A stretch of 43,909 bases of DNA. It comes from Clostridia bacterium. Its GTDB lineage: Bacteria > Bacillota > Clostridia > Oscillospirales > CAG-272. Where the stretch lies: positions 1-43,909 of the forward strand of contig JAFTME010000093.1 in the NCBI GenBank assembly GCA_017452545.1. Reading direction: 5' to 3'. The notes under the pieces are model-generated. The model was not told where the DNA came from, did no database searches, and saw nothing but the letters and a program-made list of their open reading frames with translations. The translations under genes were made by a program, and so were the position numbers. Shown piece after piece: positions 1,387 to 43,639 of this stretch (the first letter of the stretch is position 1; every line of letters starts with the position of its first letter).

Positions 1387-4300
1387 ATGATTCTTTTAAA
1401 GAATATTGCAAAGGCCTATCAGGTGGGCGACAAAAGAAGTGGGGAAGCGGTGCCTGCGTTGCGTAACGTTACGCTGGCGTTCAGAGATAATGAGTTTGTA
1501 TCCGTGCTGGGTCCGTCCGGCTGCGGAAAAACGACGCTGCTCAACATTCTCGGCGGTTTGGATCACTACAGCGACGGTGATCTGATCATCAATGGACGCT
1601 CGACCAAGGAGTACAAGGACGCCGACTGGGATACCTATCGCAATCATTCCATCGGCTTTGTTTTTCAAAGCTATAATTTGATCCCACACCAGTCCGTTCT
1701 GGCGAACGTAGAGCTGGCACTGACGCTTTCGGGCGTATCCCGTGCCGAGCGCCGTCGCCGCGCGATCGATGCGCTCAAAAAGGTAGGACTTGGTGACCAG
1801 ATCCATAAGCGCCCCAATCAGATGTCGGGCGGACAGATGCAGCGTGTTGCCATCGCGCGTGCGTTGGTCAACGATCCGGATATCTTGCTCGCGGATGAGC
1901 CGACAGGTGCCCTGGATACGACCACGAGCGTTCAGATCATGGAGATTCTCAAGGAGATTTCTCATGATAAGCTGATCCTGATGGTCACGCACAACCCCGA
2001 GATCGCTCTGACCTACTCCACGAGAATCGTGCGTCTTTTGGATGGGCGTGTGGTCGGTGATACCCAGCCCTACGACCCCGCGCAAGCGGAGAAGGATGCC
2101 GCAGACCGCATCGCGCAGCAAAGAACGCGCGCGGCACGGGCGAAGGAGGAGCGCAAGCGCATGAGCCGCCGCGAAAAGAAAGCGGCAAAGCGCGCAGAGA
2201 GGGCAAAGAAAAAGGGTAAGCGCTCGATGTCCTTTGCGACTGCGCTTATGCTTTCCTTCCAGAATCTGATGACCAAAAAGGCGAGAACGCTGCTGACCTC
2301 GTTTGCCGGCAGCATCGGTATTATCGGCATTGCGCTGATTCTCGCTATGTCTACAGGTATTCGCGCTTACGTCGATGCCGTACAGCGTGATACGCTGTCC
2401 TCCTACCCGATGACCATCGAGGCGGAAACGACCGATATGACCGCGCTGCTGACGACCATGGCGGGCGGCTCCGATGACGGCGAGGTGGAGGAGCACGAAG
2501 AGGGCTCCGTCTACTCCAATCCGCAGATGTATGCGCTGTTCAACTCTATTTTTGCAGCTGAAACGACCACCAACAACCTGACGGCTTTCCGTGAGTTTTT
2601 GATCGAAAACATGGAAAAGACGGGGGAAGGGGAGCTGGGCTCGTTGGTTTCCTCCATTCGTTACCAGTATAACGTTGGTATGAATACCTATGTGGAACAA
2701 GAGGACGGCTCGTATCTTTCCTGCGATCTTGGTGACGGACTCAAAAACAACACCACCCAAGGAAGCGGTAATGCGGGCATTTACAACATGATGGCGCAGT
2801 ATACAGAAACGCTCAATCTGTGGACCGAGCTGCTTCCCGGACGGGATGATGCCCTGATTTCCGATATGTACGCCGAGCAATACGATCTGCTCTGGGGCGA
2901 GTGGCCGGAGAACGCAAATGAGGTCGTGCTGATGGTGGACGAGAACAATGAAATCTCGGATTTTGCTTTCTACGTGCTCGGTATGATCTCTGCGGAGGAC
3001 GTACAGAGTATTCTTGCCAGCGCACTGAAGGGCGAGAAAATCGATCTCCCCTCGCGTAAAATCGACTTTGAGGATATTGGCGAACTTCGCTTCCGCGTTC
3101 TGACCGATGCCGAGCTGTATACCGATACGGATGGTGACGGTATCTTTGTCAATAGCCGCGATGACGAATCCATGCGCACGCTGCTGCTTGGTAATGCGAC
3201 CGAGCTGCGCATATCCGGTATCATTCGCCCCAACGAGGACGCATCGGTCGGCCCGAGCGCTGCAGTGTTCGGCTATACCTCGGCGCTGACGCAAAAGCTG
3301 ATTGCAGCCGTGGAGAACAGCCCGGTCATGCTGGCGCAGACCGACGAGAAAAATGTCAATTTTGACGTGCTGACGGGACTTCCCTTCGAGATTACCGAGG
3401 AGATCGATCCCACCGACGCATACAAGGCAGAGCAGATCCGCAATTATTTCACATCGCTTGATTCCGCAGCCAAGACCGAGCTGTATATCAAAATGCTTTC
3501 TGTTCCCGATGAGGCGGCAATGGCAGCGCAGCTGGAGCAGATCATGGCATCCTACGGCACGCGTGAGGCGATGGAGCAGCTGGCAGCCGACGGCTACGGC
3601 ATGGATATTGAAACCATTCGCTCCTATCTTGCTTCCTACACCGACGAGCAGCTGCACGCCATGGTGGAGGAGCAGATGCGCGCCATGCTGACTGAGCAGT
3701 ACGCAACGCAGGCAAAGGCGCGCGTAGAGGCCATTATGACCACGCCGTCCGAAGCTGAGCTTGCCGGTTATACCGCACAGCTGCTCTCGCAGGTCGGAAC
3801 CGACCGCACGGCGCTGACCGGCTTTGTGATGATGGATTGGAAGCAGCATGTTTCCATGGACGATATGGCGCTGATGGGATATCTTGCCGGGTTGAGCGAT
3901 GAACAGCTTTACGAGGCGGCATCCGCTGTCGCCGCCAAGACGGCAAAGCAGTTGTATGCAGCAAACACCTCTGCCACCAGCCCCGAGGCATATGCCAAGG
4001 CGGCAGCCGCGTTTGACGCCCATTGGCAGGTAAGTGCCGACGATGAGGCGGCTATGGCAGCGATGTACGATGCGTGGATGCCCTCCACTGTGTCGGGCAG
4101 CACGCTGACCGAGGTGCTGGAGACGCTTGGCGCGGTCAGTGAGGAAAAGCCGTCTGCCATTCACATTTACGCCAACGACTTTGAGGATAAAGATGCCATC
4201 TCCAACCTGATCACCGAGTATAACAAAACGGTTGCAGAGGAGGATCAGATCTCGTATACCGACTATATGGCGCTGATGATGTCGGGTATCACCAATATCA

Positions 4301-4713
4301 TCAATGCGATCACCTACGGCTTGATTGCCTTCGTTGCCGTATCGCTTGTGGTATCCTCGATCATGATCGGTATCATCACCTATATTTCGGTGTTGGAGCG
4401 CACCAAGGAGATCGGTATTTTGCGCGCCATCGGTGCGTCCAAGCGGGACGTATCCTCGGTCTTTAACGCAGAGACGCTGATCGTCGGTTTTACGGCAGGT
4501 ATGATCGGTATCGGCAGCTCGTTGCTGCTGTGTATCCCCATCAACTGGATCGTGCACACGCTCAGCGGCATTACGGCGATCAACGCATTCCTGCCAACCG
4601 AGGCGTGCGTCATTCTGGTTCTGATCAGCATGGTACTGACATGGATCGCAGGCTTGTTCCCGGCATCCATGGCGGCGCATAAGGATCCCGTAGAGGCGCT
4701 GCGCACGGAATAA
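1387..4713 (+). CDS. ABC transporter ATP-binding protein/FtsX-type permease fusion (MacB-like)
   Basis: This 1108-residue protein combines an ATPase and a permease. Residues 1-225 form an ABC ATPase with Walker A GPSGCGKT (42-49), Q-loop FVFQSYN (91-97), signature MSGGQ (146-150), Walker B DILLADE (165-171) and an H-loop histidine near 202. A very basic linker (about 240-280) follows, then one membrane helix (about 303-322), a large extracytoplasmic region to about 965, and three C-terminal helices with the FtsX/MacB sequence [19 protein letters not shown]. This is the type VII (mechanotransmission) ABC architecture, in which ATP hydrolysis moves an outer domain rather than carrying a substrate across the membrane. 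Residues about 690-930 are an Ala/Glu/Met-rich helical insertion. The gene is monocistronic, with its own promoter and terminator. The substrate is unknown; peptide or antibiotic resistance and lipoprotein handling are both possible. Confidence 0.92.
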
Positions 4714-39997: not shown

Positions 39998-40082
39998 TTA
40001 AAGAGTAGCGTACCGAACACGATCTCGGTGTGAGGCCCGTTGCGGGCGTCCGCCGAAGAAAAAGAAAGGCATGGTCAATGAA

Positions 40083-40319
40083 ATGGCAGATTTGAAGGAA
40101 ACCTTAACGGGCATTGCCAAAGCCATTGTTGACAACCCCGAGGAAGTCACGGTGGTTGAAAGCACCGATGATAATTCTATCGATCTTGTGTTGAGCGTTG
40201 CTCCCGACGATATGGGTATGGTCATCGGCCGCCACGGCAGAATCGCAAAGGCGATCCGCACGGTAATGAAGGCTGCTGCTACCGGCAGCGGCAAGAAGAT
40301 TAACGTCGAAATTCGCTGA
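40083..40319 (+). CDS. khpA: KH-domain RNA-binding protein KhpA
   Basis: The product has 78 residues from ATG 40083 (MADLKETLTGIAKAIVDNPEEVTV), or 82 from ATG 40071. GAAAGG (40064-40069) is too near 40071 and rather far from 40083, so the start is uncertain. The KH fold carries GxxG in VIGRHGRIAKAIRTVMKAAA. In streptococci KhpA pairs with KhpB/EloR to control cell-wall elongation and mRNA levels. Confidence 0.93.
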   Translation: MADLKETLTGIAKAIVDNPEEVTVVESTDDNSIDLVLSVAPDDMGMVIGRHGRIAKAIRTVMKAAATGSGKKINVEIR

Positions 40320-40321
40320 GC

Positions 40322-40360
40322 AAAAAATCACCGCAGAGTCAAGCTCTGCGGTGATTTTTT
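40322..40360 (+). terminator. bidirectional terminator after khpA
   Basis: AAAAAATCACCGCAGAG (40322-40338) and its inverse (40344-40360) enclose TCAAG. T-tracts on both strands serve khpA and the convergent lipoprotein gene. Confidence 0.9.
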
Positions 40361-40362
40361 GT

Positions 40363-41253
40363 TTAGTCAAAAGCAATATATTTTCCTTCAAAGTAGATGT
40401 ACAGGGTGCTCGGCGCCGCGGCGGATTTGTATATGCTGCAGCCGACCAAGCCACAGTTGGTGTAAAAGTTCTTCTCCGGGATGCGCGTACGACCGATGGT
40501 GCCGTGGACAAATCCAACACATTCGAGATCCGCCGGTGCCTCGGTCGGCGTTGCCGAGAAGTTTTCGCTGTAAAGTGTGTTTTCGTAACGCATGATAGGA
40601 GGAGGCGTGCCATCATCGGCTATGCTAAATGCAAGATAACCATCGTCCGTGGCAATGTAGATGCTGCTACCGTCGCCCGTGTATACGGTGCTGCCGACGT
40701 GTCCGCAGTTGCTGTAAAAATCCTCGGTAGGATAGGTGTTTTCCTCAACGCTGCTAAGAACGGAGCCAATCTCTTGGAGCTTGCTTGCGTCGATGAGTTC
40801 GCTTCTCATGTTGGAACATGTATAAAGGATCCCGTTGTAGCGGATCGCGGACTTGATAGGAGCTGCGGGGTGCGGCTCGGGGCGCATGAAGCCATGGTAG
40901 ATGTCGCCGTCAAGAATGTAAAGCATATCCGGTGCGGAGGACAGCGTATAGACCTCGCAGCCGACGTAGCCGCAGTTGCTTTGCAGCGCTTGCTCCGGGA
41001 GTGTGTTATTCGCTACCGTGCTCGCGATTTTCCCGACAGACTGTAGCTGCGATGCCTGGTCGGCAGCGAGCGGATCGGATGTGAAATACAGTGCATCACC
41101 GTAATAGACGGCGGGCACACGCTCACGGATGGGAGCTGCGCTATCCTCCTGTGTCAGATCATCACCCTGCGCAGGCGGTGTCTCTGTGAGGGCACAGGCG
41201 GATAGGAAGAGGAGGGCAGAGAGCAGTAGAAAGAATATGCGTAAGGGGTTCAT
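40363..41253 (-). CDS. lipoprotein with three tandem 'NCGxVG' repeats
   Basis: The product has 296 residues and is not recognised. The signal MNPLRIFFLLLSALLFLSAC gives lipidation at C20. After a short Asp/Glu/Pro linker come three repeats at about residues 47-122, 137-209 and 220-295. Each has an opening Y(Y/N/E)..(L)LY beta strand, a central helix, the motif NCG(Y/H/L)VG (N93, N182, N266), and closes with a (L/I)YI.....Y.(A/G)F strand. Many repeats carry extra cysteines (C99, C272) and C145, C245. The context gives no function: it has its own promoter and shares a terminator with khpA. GGAGG lies 8 bases before the ATG. Confidence 0.8.
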   Translation of the reverse strand: MNPLRIFFLLLSALLFLSACALTETPPAQGDDLTQEDSAAPIRERVPAVYYGDALYFTSDPLAADQASQLQSVGKIASTVANNTLPEQALQSNCGYVGCEVYTLSSAPDMLYILDGDIYHGFMRPEPHPAAPIKSAIRYNGILYTCSNMRSELIDASKLQEIGSVLSSVEENTYPTEDFYSNCGHVGSTVYTGDGSSIYIATDDGYLAFSIADDGTPPPIMRYENTLYSENFSATPTEAPADLECVGFVHGTIGRTRIPEKNFYTNCGLVGCSIYKSAAAPSTLYIYFEGKYIAFD

Positions 41254-41295: not shown

Positions 41296-41324
41296 ATTGT
41301 ACCATGCGGGTGGGGGACTGTCAA
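41296..41324 (-). promoter_or_regulatory. promoter of the triple-repeat lipoprotein gene
   Basis: On the minus strand TTGACA (41319-41324) and TACAAT (41296-41301), spacer 17. Confidence 0.85.
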
Positions 41325-41382: not shown

Positions 41383-41416
41383 AAAAAACGCCCGAGCATC
41401 CATGGATGCCCGGGCG
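41383..41416 (-). terminator. terminator of the sugar ABC ATPase gene
   Basis: CGCCCG/CGGGCG with GCATC/GATGC and loop CATG (41389-41416). On the minus strand TTTTTT (41383-41388) follows. Confidence 0.85.
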
Positions 41417-41428
41417 AAACCGGTTATA

Positions 41429-42541
41429 TTAGTGGATGATGCACTTCTCAGTATCCTTATCGAAGATATGGATTCTGGTGGAGTCAAATGCAACCTTGAT
41501 CTTGTCGCCTGCGCGAGTGGTGGAGCGAGAGGAAACACGAGCGGTCAGCTTGGTCTCGCCAACGAGCAGGTACAGATAGATCTCAGCACCCATCAGCTCG
41601 GTAACGTCAACGTCGGTATCAACGGTAGCGTCAGCGAACAGAGCCAGGTTAGCAGCATCGTCGTGGATGCACTCGGGACGCAGACCAACAACGACTTCCT
41701 TGCCGATGTAGTCCTTCAGCTCGGGAGCGTTTGCCTTCTCAGCGGGCAGCTTAATGGAAGCATTCTCGAAGGTGAAGTAAACGTCCTCACCCTTCTTCTC
41801 CAGCTTACCGTCCATGAAGTTCATCTGGGGAGTACCGATGAAGCCTGCAACGAACTGGTTGCAAGGAGAATCGTACAGGTTCTGAGGAGTATCAACCTGC
41901 TGGATCAGACCGTCCTTCATAACGACGATACGGGTTGCCATGGTCATAGCCTCGACCTGGTCATGCGTAACGTATACGAAGGTGGTCTCAACGCGGTGAT
42001 GAATTCTGGTCAGCTCGGTTCTCATTGCTGCACGGAGCTTAGCGTCCAGGTTGGACAGAGGCTCGTCAAGCAAGAAGACCTGAGGGTTACGAACGATTGC
42101 ACGACCCAGAGCAACACGCTGCTTCTGACCACCGGACAGAGCCTTGGGCTTACGGTCAAGCAGGTGAGTGATATCCAGCGCACGAGCTGCATCCTCAACG
42201 CGGCGCTTGATCTCCTCCTTCGGGGTCTTGGAGAGCTTCAGGCCGAATGCCATGTTCTCGAATACGGACATATGGGGGTACAGAGCGTAGTTCTGGAACA
42301 CCATTGCGATCTTTCTGTCCTTGGGAGCGACGTCGTTAACCAGACGGTCGCCGATGAACAGCTCGCCCTCGGTGATTTCCTCCAGACCTGCGATCATACG
42401 CAGAGTCGTGGTCTTACCGCAACCGGAAGGACCGACGAGGACCAGGAACTCCTTGTCCTTGACTTCCAGGTTGAAGTCGGAAACGGCGGTAACGCCGCCG
42501 GGGTACTTCTTATAAATGTGTCTGAGAGATAAGCTTGCCAT
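41429..42541 (-). CDS. sugar ABC transporter ATPase, MsmK/UgpC type
   Basis: The product has 370 residues from ATG 42541, with GGAGG 8 bases upstream; an in-frame start at 42589 precedes that site. The ATPase domain shows Walker [11 protein letters not shown]-loop FQNYALYPH, signature LSGGQKQRVALGRAI, Walker B VFLLDEPLSNLDAKLR and THDQVEAM. The C-terminal TOBE/regulatory domain (QVDTPQNLYDSPCNQFVAGFIG, then VGLRPECIH) defines the carbohydrate importer subfamily. No permease or binding protein is nearby, so it probably serves several sugar transporters, as MsmK does in streptococci. No convincing promoter was found in the 200 bases upstream. Confidence 0.93.
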   Translation of the reverse strand: MASLSLRHIYKKYPGGVTAVSDFNLEVKDKEFLVLVGPSGCGKTTTLRMIAGLEEITEGELFIGDRLVNDVAPKDRKIAMVFQNYALYPHMSVFENMAFGLKLSKTPKEEIKRRVEDAARALDITHLLDRKPKALSGGQKQRVALGRAIVRNPQVFLLDEPLSNLDAKLRAAMRTELTRIHHRVETTFVYVTHDQVEAMTMATRIVVMKDGLIQQVDTPQNLYDSPCNQFVAGFIGTPQMNFMDGKLEKKGEDVYFTFENASIKLPAEKANAPELKDYIGKEVVVGLRPECIHDDAANLALFADATVDTDVDVTELMGAEIYLYLLVGETKLTARVSSRSTTRAGDKIKVAFDSTRIHIFDKDTEKCIIH

Positions 42542-42739
42542 TGGAACAATCCTCCTAAAAAATAATCGGGTAGTTTTAATAGTAGACAATCTTTAACGCT
42601 TATTATTTTACCAAAAAATGCGTCGAAAGGGAAGAGGGATTTTCCCCAAAAATCACCCCTGCAACTTGTGCAACTGTTACAATTTAGTGCGAACAAAGTG
42701 TGAATAAAACGAATTTTGGCAACCCTGTTATTTAATAAA

Positions 42740-43387
42740 TTAAAAATATTCGAGAAGAACCGCCAAAGCCTCCCAAGGCAACGCGCCCTCAATGACGGCG
42801 GCCTCGATGAGACTGTGATTGCATGGAATATAGCGGAGCAGATGCCAGTCCAGCTTGCCCTCGAAAATGCTCTCAATCAGCGCCATGCGCGACTGCTCGT
42901 TGAGGAAAGGGGCGAGGCGACGGACAAGATCGGGGGGGAGTGCGGAAAAATCGGCGTTTTCGATCAGCGAGACGGTTGCCTCATCCGAGAGATATTCTGC
43001 CAGCTCCATGATGTTGGTGATATCCACACCATGCTTATGCAGTCCCTTGGAAAGCTTGTCGAGGACGCTGGGCTTGAGCAGAGGGGCGATGCCGATCAGA
43101 TCGTTGATTTGGTCTGTCATGATGTTTTGTTCTCCTTTTGCAATTTGTTTGAGCAGATGCTGCTCGCCTTGACTTGACGTGCCGGCGCTGATGAGCTCGT
43201 CCAGCGATACCGAAAAAAGTTCAGAGAGCGGAACGAGGATCGAAATATCGGGGAAGCTGTCGCCGCGCTCATATTTTGAGATGGCTTGGCGAGTGACCGA
43301 CAGGCGGTCGGCAAGCTCGCTTTGCGTCATGTCTGCCTTCTTTCGCAGGCGTGCAAGATAGGCGCCGAAGGCGAAAATGTCAAACAT
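42740..43387 (-). CDS. XRE-family transcriptional regulator
   Basis: The product has 215 residues from ATG 43387, with GAGGAGG 7 bases upstream. Residues about 12-66 (YLARLRKKADMTQSELADRLSVTRQAISKYERGDSFPDISILVPLSELFSVSLDELI) form a Cro/C1-type helix-turn-helix. The remainder is helical, with several similar amphipathic segments (LIGIAPLLKPSVLDKLSKGL, ITNIMELAEYLSDEATVSLI, LPPDLVRRLAPFLNEQSRMALI), a likely dimer or sensor domain. An AAAGGAG ahead of an in-frame ATG at 43120 might permit a separate C-terminal product. The regulated genes are unknown. Confidence 0.88.
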   Translation of the reverse strand: MFDIFAFGAYLARLRKKADMTQSELADRLSVTRQAISKYERGDSFPDISILVPLSELFSVSLDELISAGTSSQGEQHLLKQIAKGEQNIMTDQINDLIGIAPLLKPSVLDKLSKGLHKHGVDITNIMELAEYLSDEATVSLIENADFSALPPDLVRRLAPFLNEQSRMALIESIFEGKLDWHLLRYIPCNHSLIEAAVIEGALPWEALAVLLEYF

Positions 43388-43421
43388 AAAGAATACCTCC
43401 TCGATTGATTTCGGTAGCTTT

Positions 43422-43450
43422 ATTGTAACAGGAAAGACAAAGCGAGTCAA
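43422..43450 (-). promoter_or_regulatory. promoter of the XRE regulator gene
   Basis: On the minus strand TTGACT (43445-43450) and TACAAT (43422-43427), spacer 17. Between 43451 and 43640 no gene is seen; there is only a GGGG/CCCC hairpin near 43562-43577. Confidence 0.8.
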
Positions 43451-43639
43451 GCAACGGGTGGTTGCAAAGAGGGGCGAGGGGATTAAGATTGTGCGAACAG
43501 GGTTGTCTAACTTATCAATCTCGGTCAAATTCACCGCAAAACTAATTTATTGCCAAATTTGTGGGGCAGGGGCCCCATATGGACGTTGCTGTTTGTTTAT
43601 TCAGGACAGAACCGCTAAAAATTCAATCCTAAAATTTTT

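Follow-up and report, generated by a model that had tools for sequence, protein, structure and literature searches.

P0001, encoded in a 43,909-nucleotide stretch of DNA from a Clostridia bacterium (contig JAFTME010000093.1 of assembly GCA_017452545.1; hereafter the window), is a lipoprotein carrying three copies of an extracytoplasmic beta domain that is still unnamed. The domain identity of P0001 is well supported, and a remote homology between its domain family and the domain of NisI and SpaI is probable. What the protein does we infer by analogy with NisI. Tentatively, we read P0001 as a surface lipoprotein, remotely related to NisI and SpaI, which may bind an antimicrobial peptide or a component of the cell envelope.

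The P0001 gene and its expression signals

P0001 is read from the minus strand (Table 1). Read on the plus strand, the frame at these positions is interrupted by stops, and a plus-strand ORF of 231 aa overlaps the gene. The lipobox (LLFLSAC) is preceded by a hydrophobic stretch, and the Pfam model LPAM_1 gives a sub-threshold match (E 1.4).

The promoter-like site of P0001 ends 42 bases 5' of the start codon. The region contains four promoter-like sites, where its shuffles have 2.0 on average, and three terminator-like sites, where they have 2.9, meaning that the latter arise nearly as often by shuffling. Since terminator-like and promoter-like sites lie between the upstream ABC ATPase gene and P0001, co-transcription of the two genes was judged unlikely; P0001 is probably a single-gene transcript. 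The perfect hairpin between the convergent genes is probably a two-way terminator. The surroundings of P0001 consist of ribosomal and tRNA-synthetase (housekeeping) genes, among which no lantibiotic cluster was seen by eye.

Table 1. Position of P0001, its parts and the neighbouring features in the window
Feature	Position	Strand	Basis or remark
Three-domain lipoprotein gene P0001	40363..41253	-	296 aa, start at 41253
Ribosome-binding site AAAAGGAGG of P0001	7 bases 5' of ATG	-	by eye
P0001 signal peptide and lipobox LSAC (residues 17-20, Cys20)	41194..41253	-	by eye from translation
Acidic linker, lipid anchor to first domain of P0001	41128..41193	-	by eye
P0001 repeat/domain 1, residues 43-126	40876..41127	-	profiles; AlphaFold2 pLDDT 93.5
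P0001 repeat/domain 2, residues 132-212	40618..40860	-	profiles
P0001 repeat/domain 3, residues 216-296	40366..40608	-	profiles
P0001 promoter-like site TTGACA-17-TACAAT, TG before second hexamer	41296..41324	-	consensus match, 11/12
Terminator-like hairpin 3' of upstream ABC ATPase gene	41389..41416	-	12 pairs, 9 GC, T run
Perfect hairpin with A/T flanks, between convergent genes	40322..40360	.	by eye; absent from automatic site list
Upstream neighbour, ABC transporter ATPase (ABC_tran, OB_MalK, TOBE)	41429..42589	-	Pfam; probably separate transcript
Convergent neighbour, small RNA-binding (KH-type) protein, after ffh and rpsP	40071..40319	+	labels by eye

Three copies of one domain

A profile built from five domains that occur in the genus outside P0001 detects exactly three domains in the protein, at residues 47-123, 135-212 and 218-295, with scores of 64.1, 57.7 and 63.3 bits. 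On 1000 shuffles of mature P0001 the same profile reached 6.1 bits at best, and because the observed scores far exceed this value the repeats are considered real. Their membership in a wider domain family, marked by a conserved Asn and a G..VY strand, is settled by a second profile, made from 57 domains of other genera, which recovers all three repeats (37.4, 39.3 and 41.5 bits, against 8.5 for the highest of 1000 shuffles).

The initial annotation had described P0001 as a lipoprotein with three repeats of about 75 residues, each with a strand-helix-NCG-strand order. The lipobox, recognised by eye, and the three domains separately recognisable by profile confirm this description, and the NCG triplets are found in the translation at exactly the residues given for them (93, 182 and 266). 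The unit is about 82 residues long, however, and not 75. The proposed order fits the AlphaFold2 model of repeat 1, which has strands at 6-9 and 12-17, a helix at 22-27, a strand at 28-33, the NCG loop and strands at 58-62, 65-73 and 76-81.

A domain family without a library model

Searches with P0001 gave no usable match in Pfam, NCBIfam or PDB sequences. None of these three names the domain or offers a strong match of the repeats to a known domain family, and to that extent the family is indeed unrecognised, as had been proposed; the repeat is not, however, peculiar to P0001, whose copies are divergent members of a widespread domain. A first scan of genome contigs found no relative. A profile of eight repeats from the genus detected relatives at E 1e-3 in 16 of the 295 genomes sampled from the order (Oscillospirales; about 5%), and a 22-row profile detected them at E 1e-4 in 31 of the 391 sampled from the class (Clostridia; 8%), both counts including P0001's own genome. 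The third match of the family-level search (G083, E 6e-4) contains three internal stop codons and, being probably spurious, was discarded. The viral contigs scanned held no relative of the domain. Named carriers include Agathobaculum desmolans, A. massiliense, Roseburia inulinivorans, Pseudoflavonifractor sp., Flavonifractor plautii and Acutalibacter sp.

No Pfam model, PF18218 included, was matched by 22 family domains at E 0.1. PHROGs yielded nothing usable for 22 family members, one of which matches a single function-unknown PHROG at E 0.044. The domain family of P0001 is without a model in the libraries searched. No description naming the domain, or NisI-like domains on anti-sigma proteins, appeared in the part of the literature covered (PMC4828448 and PMC12506125 included), a scope that does not establish that the family is undescribed.

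Domains with an i-E below 1e-6 and a covered model make up a set of 65, from which fragments such as L004, L006 and L071 are dropped. Alignment A1 leaves out the split domain of L004, A2 comprises 22 of 23 domains (L014, close to L015, is left out) and A4 comprises 14 of 16. A rough consensus of the family reads P-M-v-x-v-x-G-x-L-Y ... G-x-I-x-S-x-V ... P-x-x-n-x-q-S/A-N ... G-x-x-V-Y ... Y/W-x-x-F.

The domain occurs in diverse settings. Rough automatic pattern sorting divided 56 non-redundant domain ORFs into 29 lipobox-like proteins, 23 with a transmembrane segment, two M56/BlaR1-like proteins and two undecided cases; L003 and L070 are probably misplaced in this sorting, and L022 is also BlaR1-like by eye. 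Fusions to BlaR1-like proteins were recognised, by eye and by pattern, in L022, L035 and L037, and a fusion to Big_14 in L009. Immediately upstream of the domain gene, 13 of 16 named loci have an ECF sigma gene, as do 3 of 44 other loci; the 16 came from an ECF-adjacent query and so do not give a general rate. Sigma domains were confirmed by Pfam in all six proteins scanned. Judged from gene order, the ECF-adjacent domain proteins would be anti-sigma factors; among four of them compared with Pfam, only L058 shows DUF4179, below threshold (E 0.047). Given its lipoprotein, transmembrane, ECF-linked and BlaR1-like settings, the domain is an extracytoplasmic module, used alone and on apparent sensors.

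Within its own genome, P0001 is accompanied by a second family lipoprotein, a single-domain protein of 135 aa with a lipobox recognised by eye (G000:C43). An XRE-type regulator, labelled by eye, is found near both copies, at 42740-43534 of the window and at 40-303 of L073, in both cases on the minus strand. Two-domain tandem versions exist in other genera (L028 and L012, with frames of 329 and 243 aa), so tandem duplication of the domain has more than one origin or is old.

The domain is also carried by three small mobilizable plasmids. That of Blautia hydrogenotrophica (NZ_CP136424.1; L103, 1059-1829) has, beside erm(B), a gene whose domain is a close relative of the L019-type domain, and plasmids of 5962 bases from Enterococcus faecium (L102) and from a Clostridiales isolate carry an identical domain. 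In L057, L058 and L064, a pair consisting of an ECF sigma gene and a domain-protein gene is flanked, by eye, by recombinase-type and relaxase-type genes; because of these flanks the pair seems to travel on a mobile element.

A probable remote relation to NisI and SpaI

NisI, the immunity lipoprotein that shields nisin producers from their own lantibiotic, is according to PMC4828448 a lipid-anchored protein with two like domains that share one fold, and it binds nisin without modifying it. The same source has the N-domain in contact with the membrane and the C-domain binding nisin, and gives Tyr152 and Asp155 as important residues (PMC4828448). The protein corresponds to NCBIfam NF033433 (NisI_immun_dup) and to PDB entries 5xhb, 2n32 and 2n2e, and the subtilin immunity lipoprotein SpaI to Pfam PF18218 (Spa1_C) and PDB 2lvl.

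Structure prediction was successful in part. Repeat 1 alone, aligned with 16 other rows, was folded confidently by AlphaFold2 (pLDDT 93.5, pTM 0.82), but a full-length model of P0001 made without an alignment reached a pLDDT of 41. When the repeat 1 model was compared with 350,542 PDB chains using Foldseek, SpaI, the NisI N-domain, the NisI C-domain and full NisI took ranks 1, 2, 3 and 5, with E-values of 0.22 to 2.6 that are not significant; SpaI, as the first match, had an E-value of 0.22 and a TM of 0.45 by query. Realignment with VIA, which only re-aligns Foldseek's list and is thus not independent, gave Z 5.3 for 5xhb, 5.2 for 2n2e, 4.7 for 2lvl and 3.6 for 2n32 over 70-73 residues, a Z of about 5 being middling and the next, unrelated entry scoring 3.3. 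What counts here is that a single family, NisI/SpaI, takes the leading places in so large a search. Matches of the model in a library of viral structures were insignificant.

Profile comparison points in the same direction. With hhalign, the 65 family domains scored 22.3 against 10 NisI-type domains and 23.7 at default settings. None of 300 column shuffles attained the latter score (best 14.2), nor did any of 268 natural decoy clusters; the best decoy scored 17.4, and just 21 of the clusters have three or more sequences. The reversed alignment scored 8.4, and circular permutation of the NisI alignment gave scores as high as 22.6, close to the unpermuted 23.7. The score increased when NisI sequences were added: against 12 NisI-type domains it was 27.2 over 78 columns (hhalign probability 62%, P 7.7e-5; best of 300 shuffles 14.9), and 24.1 when the genus domains were left out. 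Genus-only profiles, in contrast, fall short of NisI, with scores of 16.8 against 10 and 15.0 against 12 NisI-type domains that are not significant; the link to NisI therefore runs via the wider family.

Weak cross-matches were obtained with HMMs as well. Among 499 ORFs, the best non-family matches of the family HMM are NisI-type (L090, E 0.0048; L096 and L097, 0.08), followed by two unrelated ORFs (0.25 and 0.59) and the NisI-type L095 (0.78), L089 not being listed. Conversely, the best non-NisI matches of the NisI HMM are the family proteins L069 (E 0.018) and L067 (0.073); from 0.26 on, unrelated ORFs are mixed in. A repeat of these comparisons gave similar values. From the structural and profile comparisons together, we consider it probable that the domain family of P0001 and the NisI/SpaI domain are remotely homologous.

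NisI-type lipoproteins were also noted in records that do not name them as such: those of the Streptococcus 'rum' phage records (L096 and L097, both 998-1714) are annotated as hypothetical, and a two-domain NisI-type lipoprotein near 4001-4708 of a Subdoligranulum variabile plasmid (L094) is without a listed annotation.

P0001 and NisI have in common a lipid anchor and tandem copies of one beta domain, NisI ranking with the best structural matches of the repeat 1 model and its profile alignment being collinear over the 78 columns. They differ in that P0001 has three domains of about 82 residues, whereas the NisI-type proteins collected have two of about 105. SpaI is a lipoprotein with one such domain and in this resembles the single-domain paralogue of P0001; it differs in that no Pfam match, PF18218 included, was obtained for the 22 family domains. 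NF033433 and the Pfam and NCBIfam family models (PF18218) likewise gave no match to P0001. In the window's genome NF033433 found nothing at E <= 1, and in 12 genomes it gave one sub-threshold match (G487, E 0.042), away from the family gene of that genome. Because the family models fail and P0001, unlike NisI, is not accompanied by a lantibiotic cluster, P0001 is not a formal member of the NisI/SpaI group.

What the domains may bind

In the reading preferred here, the three domains of P0001 would lie outside the membrane and make it a lipid-anchored binding protein without catalysis. As ligand, an antimicrobial peptide would be most likely, or else a part of the envelope such as the lipid II target. 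A ligand held near the membrane, with P0001 perhaps serving as a decoy for peptides, might do less harm, by analogy with what NisI does for nisin.

No LanC-like gene was found in the four of six genus genomes searched, the window's included, which is about 90% complete. Self-immunity to a lantibiotic of the organism's own was for this reason judged unlikely, and any such role of P0001 would be protection against the peptides of neighbours.

The main rival to this peptide-binding reading takes the domain for a general extracytoplasmic sensor or interaction module that has no link to antimicrobial peptides. The lipoproteins would then bind peptidoglycan, a carbohydrate or a partner protein, and the anti-sigma-like and BlaR1-like proteins would detect an envelope signal. 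The ECF sigma genes upstream of the domain gene (13 of the 16 loci obtained with the ECF-adjacent query and 3 of the 44 others) and the fusions to BlaR1-like proteins and to Big_14 speak for such a module, which we regard as a serious possibility although short of probable. It leaves unexplained, however, why NisI and SpaI should come closest among solved structures and give the best match by profile, and no sigma gene was seen by eye beside P0001 in the window. The ECF anti-sigma-type proteins of Agathobaculum, Roseburia and Flavonifractor share with P0001 the same domain by profile and an extracytoplasmic location by predicted topology, but there the domain is part of a transmembrane protein beside a sigma gene, whereas P0001 is a lipoprotein with no such neighbour seen in the window. 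The gene settings do not decide between the sensor and the peptide-binding readings.

The NCG motif

The Asn-Cys-Gly triplet had initially been named as an element shared by the repeats, and the nearby cysteines as candidates for disulfide formation or metal binding outside the cell. Neither carries over to the family. It is the Asn that marks the family, being kept in 62 of 65 domains. The Cys that follows is confined to the genus, in 7 of 8 domains, and occurs in none of 57 domains elsewhere, which mostly have F, H or D at this position. A second Cys (VGC) is present in 5 of 8 genus domains and in 7 of 57 others, and is missing in repeat 2 of P0001. On sequence grounds, the NCG motif is therefore a local variant within a domain of wider spread.

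P0001 contains cysteines at residues 20 (lipobox), 94, 99, 146, 183, 245, 267 and 272, which leaves the mature protein with an odd number of them (seven) besides the lipid-modified one. Because the NCG Cys is confined to the window's genus and no cysteine set is conserved family-wide, disulfide or metal binding would be at most a local feature, and cysteine chemistry appears unlikely as the general function of the domain. That extracellular disulfides or a bound metal define the function of P0001 is highly improbable: the frequency of both cysteines within the genus favours it, but outside the genus the NCG Cys is absent from all 57 domains and the second Cys from 50, and neither the lack of the second Cys in repeat 2 nor the seven mature cysteines fit it well.

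Distribution of P0001 within the genus

The P0001 gene is present in two of six genomes of the genus. In a sister species (G003), the same gene slot holds a three-domain counterpart within flanks that are 78-86% identical at the DNA level. The products of five neighbours (ffh, rpsP, the KH-type protein, an ATPase fragment and a tRNA synthetase) are 86-94% identical between G003 and the window; identity of the counterpart to P0001 is 32% over the aligned part, as that of a fast-changing surface protein would be. In the other four genomes no P0001-like gene was found beside the KH-type gene at E 1e-5, and the ATPase gene is not adjacent there. A further family lipoprotein gene of G003 is apparently split over two contig ends (L004 and L005).

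Such a patchy distribution and the low identity to the G003 counterpart could also reflect a decaying or neutral lipoprotein retained by chance and without an important role, which is very unlikely given that the frames are open with three domains in both species and that P0001 has good promoter-like and ribosome-binding sites.

Implications

A more far-reaching proposal unites the settings of the domain. The repeats would represent an undescribed superfamily of small NisI/SpaI-like domains in gut Clostridia that recognise lantibiotic-like peptides or lipid II, acting as lipoprotein decoys in non-producers (in P0001 as three copies) and as sensors on ECF anti-sigma-type and BlaR1-like proteins, all within one shared system by which antimicrobial peptides of neighbours are detected and survived. 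In this full form we consider the proposal doubtful.

The domain is present in about 5% and 8% of the sampled genomes of the order and the class, respectively, yet no Pfam or NCBIfam model covers any member scanned. If the link to NisI and SpaI holds, many lipoproteins, together with the outer domains of a group of ECF-linked and BlaR1-like membrane proteins, would gain a first function open to experiment, and the link would have a bearing on how certain gut bacteria might resist lantibiotics that they do not make themselves.
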